Assembly: GCA_015501585.1 (NCBI GenBank)
Contig: JADNRY010000005.1
Location: 744,001-808,000, forward strand
Origin: Rhodocollybia butyracea
Taxonomy: Eukaryota; Basidiomycota; Agaricomycetes; Agaricales; Omphalotaceae
Direction: 5' to 3'
DNA length: 64,000 bases
The notes beneath the pieces were generated by a model. It was not told the origin of the DNA, did no database searches, and saw only the letters and a program-made list of their open reading frames with translations. Below, one piece after another: positions 3,349 through 64,000 of this stretch (position 1 is its first letter; every line of letters begins with the position of its first letter). The translations under genes and the position numbers were made by a program.

Positions 3349-4248
3349 ATGCCAGAACAACCACCGCACGAGATTATCATCGCCTCGACTGAAGAAGAAG
3401 TCCAACAGTGCTATCAAGTCCGTATAGATGTATTCCACCATGAACAGCGATTTCCACTTGACACCGAGATAGACTAGTAAGTTTGCCTTTATTCAATAAA
3501 TCCTTCATTCTACTACATACTGAGTACTGATCACTACCAATGTACCATAAAATCGCAGCCTAGATCCCATCGCAACACACTTCCTCCTCCGCCTCACACC
3601 ATCTCTTACCCCAATCGGCGTCATCCGAGGCTCCCGCTCCCCCTCGACAGGTTCTTACAAACTCTCGCGTCTCGCCGTCCTCAAGGAGTACCGCCAATAC
3701 CACTTTGGCAGGAAGCTAGTCGAGGCGCTGCATGCCTGGATTAAAGCGGATGCCCAGCAATCCGGTGGCCAAACAACTAGTGGTTCTGTGCGAGTCGTCT
3801 GCCACTCTCAGATCCCCGTCAAGGGATTCTATGCAAAGTGAGTATGTGGACTGTATGTGGTTCACAATTGTGTCATTCGTGCTCACTTCTTCGGAATCGG
3901 AATGGTCGGGCAAGGGCCCACCAAAAAAAAATATGTTCTGTTGGTGCCTCGAAGGGGTTTTTCCGACCCAATTGCATTCCTACACGTACCTTATAAGAAC
4001 CCATTTCCTAATTGCTTTTCTTTTAATTCTACTCTAGATTCGGGTATACCCCAGAGGTAAGCTCGTGATAACCCCCCCTCCCCTATCTTCCCCTGCGTTA
4101 ATGAAATCGCCGGTAAAGCAAAAAAGAGATCTCGGGCTAACGGGAAAAACCTTGTTTTTGTTTCTGTTTGATATTCTAGGGCGAGGAGTTTGATGAGGAC
4201 GGAGATCCGCATCAGAAAATGGTGCTCGAGATACCATTACAACAGTAA
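3349..4248 (+). CDS. GNAT-family N-acetyltransferase
   Basis: Four exons join in frame: 3349-3476, 3559-3837, 4038-4056 (19 nt) and 4180-4248, giving about 164 residues, a normal size for a single-domain GNAT enzyme. The protein opens MPEQPPHEIIIASTEEEVQQ, and exon 1 ends in a stretch (CYQVRIDVFHHEQRF) typical of the N-terminal helix of this family. Motif A with the acetyl-CoA pyrophosphate loop is visible as LSRLAVLKEYRQYHFGRKLV. The strand after it, VRVVCHSQIPVKGFYAKFGY, matches the C-terminal GNAT motif with the FYxKxGY signature. It would transfer acetyl from acetyl-CoA to an amine. The substrate cannot be told. All introns have GT...AG ends. The same fold is found in small uncharacterised fungal acetyltransferases. 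Confidence 0.85.
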
Positions 4249-4365: not shown

Positions 4366-4829
4366 CTAGAGCTGGTACTAGCTAGTACTAGAGGTAACAA
4401 CGGTAAAAAATCTACTACATACTACAAATAAATGGGAGCGTGTATATAATATATATATACGTATATACGATTGTCACTGGTTTATACTGACGAAGTAGCC
4501 AGTCATATCATAGAGTAGAGAGCTAGCAATACAAGCATAGGGGGTGGTGGTGATACAAGTCTGTTACTAAAAAAATGTTCTATCGAAACATGAACGGGGC
4601 ATGGTATCGTATCTACTAGAAAGAGAAGAATAAGAAAGTAAGCGGAGAAGGGCAAGGTCGTAAACAGGAGCAAAGTGCGTAAAAATGTGACTTGTGCTCC
4701 GGGTGTGGATTCGTAAAATGGCGTGAACAGCAAGGGGCCCAAGGGACAACATATTTGAAGGAATAAGAAAGCACGCAACGCAAAGAAAGGAAAAACAAAT
4801 CAAACAAATCAAAAAGAAGGAACGTATTT

Positions 4830-59988: not shown

Positions 59989-60082
59989 GTTCCAATGCGG
60001 GGAATCGAACCCCGGGCTGCTGTGTAATCTTAATGGTTGCGTTAATGAAAGACAGCAATGTTAGCCACTACACCACATTGGA
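59989..60082 (-). tRNA. tRNA-Glu(TTC) with a 21-nt intron
   Basis: Acceptor TCCAATG pairs with CATTGGA. A box (TGGTGTAGTGG), anticodon loop with TTC after stem GCTGT, and a perfect GGGGTTCGATTCCCC T arm are present. The intron sits after position 37. Total 94 bp. Confidence 0.9.
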
Positions 60083-60471
60083 TTACCTTTCAGCTAATTT
60101 GGAGTCCAACAATGTACTCAGGATTGATTTTTACATACCACACCGGGATTCGGTGTTATGCTTATGCATGGCTAAGTATTAACAGTGTTGTGAGACGAGA
60201 AGTACTCTTGAAGTTCGCATGGTATGGACACTACTAGTTTGCCTCAATCATGTTTTCCGACAAGCTACTCAGCTAGCAAGCCAGTGATTGTGATACATAG
60301 TCATTGCATAGTCATTCTTTTGATATTGTTTAGCAACACAGGCAATAAATTATTTCTCGGACGGACAGCCAACAAAGTTATCGAAGTACCTAGCAGCTGA
60401 GAGAACGAACGACTTGGCTAGCAAAACAGTACTGAAAAAAGTATAGAAGCACGACCATTACATAACTCAAG

Positions 60472-60566
60472 TTCCAATGCGGGGAATCGAACCCCGGGCT
60501 GCTGTGATATACACGTCCTGCCTTCGGTATGAAAGACAGCAATGTTAGCCACTACACCACATTGGA
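60472..60566 (-). tRNA. tRNA-Glu(TTC) with a 22-nt intron
   Basis: The mature part appears identical to the tRNA at 59989-60082, while the intron sequence is entirely different (CTTCGG-centred instead of AATGG-centred). Acceptor, A box and T arm are intact. Confidence 0.9.
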
Positions 60567-62561: not shown

Positions 62562-64000
62562 CTAACAAGAGTCAAGAAGGGAGTTCTTTGGCCAAGGTTG
62601 TTTGAAATCGCCCTCCCAATTCGTCAGATTGGGGTTTGTGTAGGCTTCAAGATAACTGCGAGAGATAATGTTTTAGCGTTTGCGGAGAGGCAAACAGGAA
62701 ATGAAACATACGTGTTGATGTAGTCTGCTGTAGGGAAGTCCTGTTTACCATACCGTTAAGCATCTCGTCCAATCGTTGATTAATTTTTCATTTACCTCGG
62801 GGTCGCAACCTATGTTGATGTTCTGAGGATCCTGGTAGACTCGTATATAATCCACGCGAAGGTGATTTGGGAACGTTAGGTGCTCAAAGTCCACGACCGC
62901 AAAGTTCTCGCTCACTGTCAGTTCGATTAGCATCCGTACGACAGGAGACAAAAAAAGAATAAACTCACTCTGAAAGGTTTATAAAAGCACCGCGATTAAG
63001 TGAGTGGAAGGTAAATTTGGGAACGAACAAAGAGGCTTACCCTAGTAGGAAAAACGACGCCCAATCGTGAGCAGTTAGCGCCTTACAGTTGACAGGGAAC
63101 TTACCCTGGAATAAAGATTTTAAAGTCAGCGCAATGTAATTTTAGAACAGCGGAAGAACTCACCGAGATTTATGATGAGATACTAGTAAAAAAAGTTCGT
63201 CATTTGAACAGCAGGAGTATGTAGATACTCACCATTGGTTCTTGGGGGACGGGACGAGCAGCAATCTCTGTAATGGGATCTGCTCCCATACCAGCGACAT
63301 TGAGGGTCCATGCTGGCGTTCCACTGGATATCCAAGAAATGTACTGGGCAAAGTTTAGTATCTAGAGGATAAATCTATAGATTGCCCACTAACCGCATTA
63401 TCAAATCCTACGTCGCATCGTATAATAATTCAGCCCACGCCAGAATCCCCCAGCGAATCAAACGTACCTGGTTTGTACTAGAGCGAAATCTCAGCATAAA
63501 TTCCCCATAGTCGTCTATGATAAACACACACCTCAAATCCATAAGTCGAGTAACAGGGACTTTTTGAAAGTTCGTAACAGTCTTGATTAGTAGTAGTGAC
63601 AACCGAAGAAGCTTGTTGTAGATCTCCTCCGATATAAGAGTTCAAAGCGGATATCGACGTATTAGGTATAATCAGGTTTTGGGTAGTGTTCAACCAGATA
63701 TACTTGTCGTTGAAAGGCTAGAGTAATGTTTATTAGCAGTATGTAACCTTAAGAACATCAACCGACTTACTGCCCACTGTGCTGACTGGGAGACCTGCCC
63801 TGTCAAAGGTGTTCCAGTGACCTGAATAATGAAGTCAGTAGCGAATTCCTTTTACAAGTGGGATGTAATGGGACGTAACATACCTGAGCTTCAAACATGT
63901 CTATTTCGGGGGCACTTCGTCCGACATACGTTCCATCCGAGTGTACAGGTCCGGGATGGCTTTCACCTGCGCATGTGCACCGCGAGAGACGCTGGCCAGG
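62562..64000 (-). CDS. KRE6/SKN1-type beta-glucan synthesis protein, 5' part outside window
   Basis: Thirteen exons are visible, 250 codons in all: 64000-63884 (cut by the edge), 63821-63771, 63717-63532, 63477-63468, 63407-63394, 63343-63233, 63182-63164, 63105, 63041, 62969, 62914-62796, 62740-62712 and 62655-62562. The product has the GH16-like active-site motif GRSAPEIDMFEAQ, then NSYIGGDLQQASSVV, YGFEYKPGFDNAYISWISSG, PAWTLNVAGMGADPITEIAA, RPVPQEPMYLIINLGMSENF, DFEHLTFPNHLRVDYIRVYQ and the family C-terminus YINTYLEAYTNPNLTNWEGD ending in SLLDSC. In yeast Kre6 and Skn1 are type II membrane proteins of the secretory pathway needed for beta-1,6-glucan. A 10-nt exon supplies YKPG, and three 1-nt exons supply the GGG and ATG codons of NLGMS. 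The family is certain; the 1-nt exons are inferred from conservation and splice signals. Confidence 0.92.

Follow-up and report, generated by a model that had tools for sequence, protein, structure and literature searches.

Evidence for three consecutive single-nucleotide exons in a KRE6/SKN1 gene of the agaric Rhodocollybia butyracea

Until now, exons of one base have been described in the plant genes APC11 and VPS55 and in the fungal gene CYP621A, and a single nuclear exon of this kind is already regarded as the minimum for splicing. In Arabidopsis APC11, the nuclear single-nucleotide exon lies in what had been annotated as an intron of 422 nt, and its published account draws on cDNA and constructs (PMC4674806). 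In Fusarium, CYP621A has a one-base G exon (AGGGT), missed by annotation, in the codon of a conserved-motif Gly; the stretch measures 139 nt in F. graminearum, has RNA-read support and is counted by its authors as the first case for a fungal gene (PMC12940212). Work on plant microexons reports the 1-nt microexons of APC11 and VPS55 together with adjacent microexons of 5 and 12 nt (PMC8831610, PMC11096116), and runs of larger microexons are known as well (PMC8831610, PMC11096116, PMC7653826). In fungal mitochondria, a single-nucleotide A exon lies between the group II introns rnl-576 and rnl-577, for which a ratchet-like order was proposed (PMC12308204). Finally, stwintrons consist of an external intron one of whose splice-site elements is interrupted by a second, internal intron (PMC5639578).

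Here we describe a KRE6/SKN1 gene in which three single-base exons follow each other within 249 nt and a fourth lies further upstream. Our searches of the open-access literature turned up no report of consecutive single-base exons, in agreement with a preliminary description of this DNA that had regarded three in a row as undescribed; within that literature, it is the run of three that is new and not the single-base exon as such. As in APC11, the one-base exons stand between complete GT-AG introns and are needed for the reading frame, and the APC11 authors, in their available account, favour the intron definition with step-by-step removal that we also propose here (PMC4674806). However, APC11 has one such exon, whereas our gene has three plus a fourth, and its support is a protein encoded on short contigs. 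Like CYP621A, it is a fungal gene with a single-G exon that falls in the codon of a conserved-motif Gly and that annotation missed. CYP621A belongs to Fusarium and has one exon of this kind, for the second Gly base; in this gene of the Agaricales, three exons contribute one Gly base each and the run extends into the Met codon. In the scenario put forward for CYP621A, a cryptic exon made up for a lost base, which misfits the present run, whose intron positions are partly common to paralogues. Conserved one-base exons, neighbouring microexons and failed annotation also recall the plant microexons, for which gradual intronisation was proposed, although the available portions of those papers contain no run of one-base exons (PMC8831610, PMC11096116). 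In the mitochondrial pair, introns at neighbouring positions likewise leave a one-base exon, but these are group II and not spliceosomal introns. The likeness to stwintrons, as far as their published description goes, consists in adjacent fungal introns, sequential removal and the ease with which the whole is mistaken for one large intron. However, the four introns of the run have uninterrupted donors and acceptors and lie side by side, complete and not nested, with one base kept between neighbours, and the label 'stwintron-like' used in the preliminary description does not strictly fit. A zero-nucleotide recursive splice site is an AG/GT ratchet point at which no base is kept between the acceptor and the regenerated donor; in our run, one base is kept each time.

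The window, by which we mean the whole stretch of 64,000 nt that was analysed (G000:C827:744001-808000), comes from R. butyracea, an agaric of the Omphalotaceae, and its positions 62565-64000 hold, on the minus strand, the 3' portion of a KRE6/SKN1 beta-glucan synthesis gene (Table 1). The product belongs to this family, aligning with PF03935 over profile positions 5-501 of 501 (E 6.8e-187, 622.3 bits); a PDB search with the protein gave 24 matches, weak ones to other GH16-type enzymes (best E 5.6e-11). The gene spans 3,312 bp and has 28 introns. In the 29-exon model, exons 1-15 measure 75, 66, 188, 88, 159, 4, 17, 109, 16, 64, 11, 1, 15, 51 and 8 nt, and exons 16-29 measure 29, 200, 51, 186, 10, 14, 111, 19, 1, 1, 1, 119, 29 and 91 nt. 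Besides the locus in the window (L009, contig C827) there is a second assembled copy (L010, contig C756), with 99.755% identity over an alignment of 7,342 positions and no difference across the 249-nt run. In exon 11 the G-run of the C756 copy is shorter by one G (L009 reverse complement 4471), a difference that would break the frame and may be an allele or an assembly error. Elsewhere on the minus strand of the window, two similar tRNA genes (59989-60082 and 60471-60566) lie about 480 bp apart; ARAGORN assigns Glu(ttc) to one and SeC(tca) to the other, and an intron perhaps misplaces the anticodon.

Table 1. Coordinates of the features discussed (window positions unless another locus is named).
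Feature	Position	Strand	Remarks
KRE6/SKN1 coding region	65876 (beyond window, C827:809876) to 62565	-	578 codons, 29 exons
4-nt exon GCAG of KRE6/SKN1 gene	L009 reverse complement 3998-4001, outside window		present in P0001 reading
Fourth single-base exon, G	64456 (C827:808456; L009 reverse complement 4545), beyond window	-	Met codon of GMWPAIW
8-nt exon TGGCCATA of KRE6/SKN1 gene	L009 reverse complement 4774-4781, outside window		present in P0001 reading
10-nt exon of KRE6/SKN1 gene	63477-63468	-	
14-nt exon of KRE6/SKN1 gene	63407-63394	-	
Exon 23	63164..63182	-	TATCTCATCATAAATCTCG = YLIINL + Gly codon base 1
Intron, 58 nt	63106..63163	-	GTGAGT...TTCCAG, branch-like GCTGAC; Gly phase 1
Exon 24, single G	63105..63105	-	Gly codon base 2
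Intron, 63 nt	63042..63104	-	GTAAGT...TACTAG, branch-like GCTAAC; Gly phase 2
Exon 25, single G	63041..63041	-	Gly codon base 3
Intron, 71 nt	62970..63040	-	GTAAGC...TTTCAG, branch-like CTTAAT; Met phase 0
Exon 26, single A	62969..62969	-	Met codon base 1
Intron, 54 nt	62915..62968	-	GTGAGT...TGACAG, branch-like GCTAAT; Met phase 1
Exon 27	62796..62914	-	TG of Met, then SENFAVVDFEHL...; starts TGAGCGAG
TAG stop of KRE6/SKN1 gene	62564-62562	-	
L015 single-G exon	L015 reverse complement ~3459 (~C1049:286042)		GG-gtaag...ctag-G-gtatgg...gaag-ATG

Four introns and three bases fill the 249 nt between exons 23 and 27, and the introns stand at four successive nucleotides of the coding sequence, after Gly bases 1, 2 and 3 and after Met base 1. 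One base between the AG acceptor and the GT donor of two complete introns, which is what makes an exon single-nucleotide, is found three times in the window and once more in the gene, where the flanking introns measure 68 and 51 nt. With all three bases included the junction reads CTCGGGATGAGC, that is CTC-GGG-ATG-AGC, and with all three skipped it reads CTCGTGAGC. The coordinates given in the preliminary description, its introns of 58, 63, 71 and 54 nt with GTGAG or GTAAG donors and AG acceptors, and its branch-like motifs are as stated when the sequence is read again. We enumerated the GT-AG paths between the two flanking exons with introns of at least 40 nt (GT-AG sites alone, no GC-AG or AT-AC), and only one out of 4,259 yields YLIINL-GM-SENF. 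This is the path with three single-base exons, which also confirms the reading through G at 63105, G at 63041 and A at 62969 as the unique Gly-Met path among those enumerated; alternative splice sites giving the identical protein are absent from the same set. The observation of single-base exons is thus confirmed.

Such an arrangement is rarely produced by chance. The interior was shuffled 20,000 times with dinucleotides preserved, both ends fixed and introns of 40-130 nt allowed: any four-intron GT-AG chain with single bases between was possible in 10 shuffles, a chain with G, N and A in 2, and one that in addition had GTRAG donors in none. Sites of the form AG-N-GTRAG occur in the window in ordinary numbers (10 on the plus strand, 11 on the minus strand), and nowhere else on either strand of the window do three of them follow each other at intron spacing. 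One further pair on the minus strand (21862/21764) does not look like an intron by eye, having no pyrimidine-rich acceptor. Chance tandem splice-like motifs were discarded on the basis of the absence of GTRAG chains from the shuffles and of a second chain of three from the window.

The same bases were selected by a spliced aligner written for this analysis, in which the minimum exon size can be varied and introns are limited to 300 nt for the window gene and 160 nt for the paralogues. With the protein of the paralogue L011 as query, it returned 27 exons over the region covered, including the three single bases and the fourth upstream, at a score of 2026.2 vs 2004.8 when exons had to be at least 2 nt long. 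The model of the L011 protein had itself been built by using a hand-drafted version of the window gene as the query, and the risk of circularity was removed by repeating the alignment with six public proteins. All six (P0002, P0005, P0006, P0007 from Gymnopus androsaceus, P0009 from Lentinula edodes and P0015 from Stygiomarasmius scandens) picked the bases at 64456, 63105, 63041 and 62969, and their scores were 18.4 to 23.4 lower if exons had to be at least 2 nt. We discarded an assembly error because the two assembled copies do not differ over the run, although an error at the level of single bases is still possible, as the copies differ elsewhere (the G-run of exon 11). We also rejected a pseudogene: the 578-codon frame is whole, and the pairwise dN between the window gene and L011 is 0.196 with synonymous change saturated, as would be expected under purifying selection.

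The residues encoded by the run are conserved, as had been claimed for Leu-Gly-Met-Ser in KRE6/SKN1 proteins. In an alignment of P0001, the protein identical to the product of this gene, with 200 other homologues among the matches listed, Gly is kept in 197, and the Met position holds Met in 175, Ile in 13, Gln in 8, Val in 2, Leu in 1 and a gap in 1. At the upstream site, GMWPAIW, the Met position is Leu in 165/200 and Met in 32/200 of the listed homologues. The three proteins without Gly are P0003, probably from the C756 copy of the window gene, and P0011 and P0123, R. butyracea models of the paralogues L011 and L015. Automatic annotation fails on such genes, since these three Gly-less models among the 200 listed correspond to this gene and two paralogues from the same species. 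P0004, from Collybiopsis luxurians, reads WEVINLHYW and GMWWPAIW where the R. butyracea gene has its 4-nt and 1-nt exons, and these readings hint at missed microexons in the C. luxurians orthologue too. The frame leaves little tolerance for error in the run: the loss of any one of the three bases brings a TGA directly after the Gly codon, and the loss of any two leads to a stop 16 codons on from the beginning of exon 23. The sole in-frame skip product is that without all three, Leu-Val-Ser, and the translations thus bear out that removal of the 249 nt as a whole keeps the frame.

Evidence that the bases reach the mature RNA, although indirect, comes from P0001, found in a search of 5.8 billion proteins. 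It has 578 aa, matches with 100% identity and coverage, and is encoded on two contigs, the longest of 1,965 bp. P0001 equals the 29-exon translation at 578/578 residues, which supports the reading with the three bases included, and no best model obtained with a minimum exon of 2, 3 or 6 nt is identical to it. Its sequence reads NNVAGMWPAIW and NLGMSENF, and the fourth single-base exon is likewise required for the identity. P0002, on a contig of 1,963 bp and with 94% identity to the product of the window gene, has the same readings at both sites. Because the P0001 contigs do not exceed 1,965 bp, vs 3,312 bp for the gene, and no intron-free copy was found, we take P0001 as the product of a spliced transcript, and on these grounds its contigs very probably represent spliced RNA. 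The search for an intron-free copy used the 210-residue C-terminal part against the R. butyracea genome; all 42 candidates were scored, and every copy is interrupted. Taking this evidence together, we consider, with a probability of about 0.88, that each of the three bases is a genuine single-nucleotide exon, included as a rule in the mRNA of an active KRE6/SKN1 gene, and that four ordinary U2-type introns at successive positions delimit these exons.

The simplest alternative is one intron of 249 nt that joins 63164 directly to 62914 and gives Leu-Val-Ser. It stays in frame, and it is the reading of P0003, which lies on a contig of 49,035 bp, is taken as a model of the C756 copy, shows NLVSENF and is garbled at the upstream single-base site. 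The direct joining is answered at the protein level by P0001, which has NLGMSENF and not NLVSENF, as P0002 also does, and among the 200 other homologues listed Gly is lacking only in P0003 itself and in the two R. butyracea models P0011 and P0123. Moreover, such an intron would fall far outside the observed lengths: 95 introns modelled in six paralogues have a median of 54 nt and a maximum of 93, this one in a doubtful stretch of the L016 model, and none reaches 120 nt under an aligner limit of 160. That table is separate from the window gene (26 introns, 47-71 nt, where the aligner allowed up to 300) and from L011 (13 introns, 46-59 nt). Three internal AG-N-GTRAG sites at intron spacing, which a single intron would have to contain by coincidence, arose in 0/20,000 shuffles, and we regard a single intron as very improbable. 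Equally improbable is that P0001 derives from a different, intron-free copy, a retrocopy or a close relative, and says nothing about splicing at this locus: it is identical to the locus at 578/578 residues while the next listed protein from a short contig reaches 94%, and pieces with 97% identity to the 210-residue C-terminal query lie, in its own genome, on C827 and C756 only, both interrupted. A less extreme possibility is partial inclusion, in which both the Gly-Met and the in-frame Leu-Val-Ser forms are made, perhaps in a regulated manner. That the skip of all three bases is the only in-frame one would suit it, and, according to the APC11 paper, an artificially made 1-nt exon of potato invertase was left out of 33% of the transcripts (PMC4674806). 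However, among the 201 proteins aligned from the matches listed, Leu-Val-Ser occurs only in P0003, whose contig is of genomic size, and in none on short contigs; a minor form could be missed in this way, but we consider partial inclusion rather unlikely.

How the normal inclusion of three single bases could be achieved is a matter on which the arrangement of the sites offers some indications. Exon definition cannot act on one base, and each intron would rather be recognised across itself, by intron definition. In the run, only one base separates each acceptor AG from the donor GT that follows it. By the general rules of splice-site recognition, U2AF on the acceptor and U1 on the following donor should exclude one another at AG-N-GT because they would overlap, so that neighbouring introns would be removed in turn, each excision leaving a normal exon next to the intron that remains; introns that are not neighbours could be removed together. 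The APC11 study, in its available text, argues similarly for the exclusion of adjacent splice sites (PMC4674806). Introns of the gene family measure 45-71 nt (with the doubtful one of 93) and the longest of the window gene 71 nt; within the run the nearest pairings give 54-71 nt, vs 122-249 nt for every pairing that skips a base, and because of this difference a short-intron ruler may pair each donor with its own acceptor and keep skipping low. Intron definition with stepwise removal would therefore be the most likely mechanism in our analysis. Whether the order is strictly 5'-to-3', in a recursive manner, is more doubtful. Each removal would rebuild the next donor behind CTCG, CTCGG, CTCGGG and CTCGGGA, and indeed, once the intron upstream has gone, the exon end is followed each time by a complete GTRAG donor. 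Yet a 3'-to-5' order, or removal of introns 1 and 3 before 2 and 4, is equally workable on paper, and potato invertase lost its downstream intron first, as told in the APC11 paper (PMC4674806). We thus hold a strict 5'-to-3' order to be possible, with the other orders together having the better prospects.

Intron positions were compared in eight genes, the window gene included; L014 and L020, near-copies of L013 and L018, were compared by eye at the site, and the partial or decayed hits L019 and L021 were set aside. The Gly-Met site has no intron in L012, L013, L014, L018 and L020. A single intron occupies it in L011 and L016, at Gly phase 2, and in L017, at Met phase 0. L015 has both of these introns, and the one G left between them is an exon in the same place of the Gly codon as exon 25, with an aligner score of 1806.4 when this exon is included vs 1776.8 when it is not. 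The introns at Gly phase 1 and Met phase 1 occur, among the eight genes, in the window gene only, and L011 has no break in the stretch of the fourth single-base exon. By comparison, L018 would have two consecutive 4-nt exons (GGAG and GCGG; reverse complement 1364-1429) and a 2-nt exon CG (2232-2233). Searches with the L015 and L018 proteins returned no short-contig protein of near-complete identity among the 120 matches listed for each, and for this reason the very short exons of both paralogues (single-G in L015, 2-nt and 4-nt in L018) are comparative readings. P0203, an R. butyracea model probably of L020, is garbled at the places of the 4-nt and 2-nt exons of L018.

These positions suggest that the two inner introns of the run are common to paralogues and that the window gene gained its two outer ones next to them. 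Either the inner introns are old, like the central G exon, and losses followed one by one in L011, L016 and L017, or introns arrived at these positions more than once. In the tree of the eight genes, L009 with L011 is the sole resolved grouping (97/96). A burst of introner-like elements is not indicated: in the whole genome, at E up to 10, the 249-nt stretch matches itself and the C756 copy only, with no near-identical intron copies, a weak exclusion given that this search skips very common words.

Three one-base exons in 249 nt, with the bases of one codon coming from separate exons, leave no room for exon definition. The run is a compact natural substrate for asking how intron definition, intron length and the order of removal set the fidelity of splicing, and splicing errors are exposed in it, as the loss of one or two bases leads to an early stop and only the loss of three keeps the frame. 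Introns at four successive nucleotides are also useful for understanding how new introns land beside old ones. We tentatively propose, at somewhat less than even chances, a base-by-base saturation with introns in this lineage, in which introns could occupy each successive nucleotide of a codon, a strict short-intron ruler would do all the pairing and so set no lower limit to exon size, and exons of 1-4 bases would be common in the KRE6/SKN1 family, the central G exon being perhaps old and the outer two introns later.
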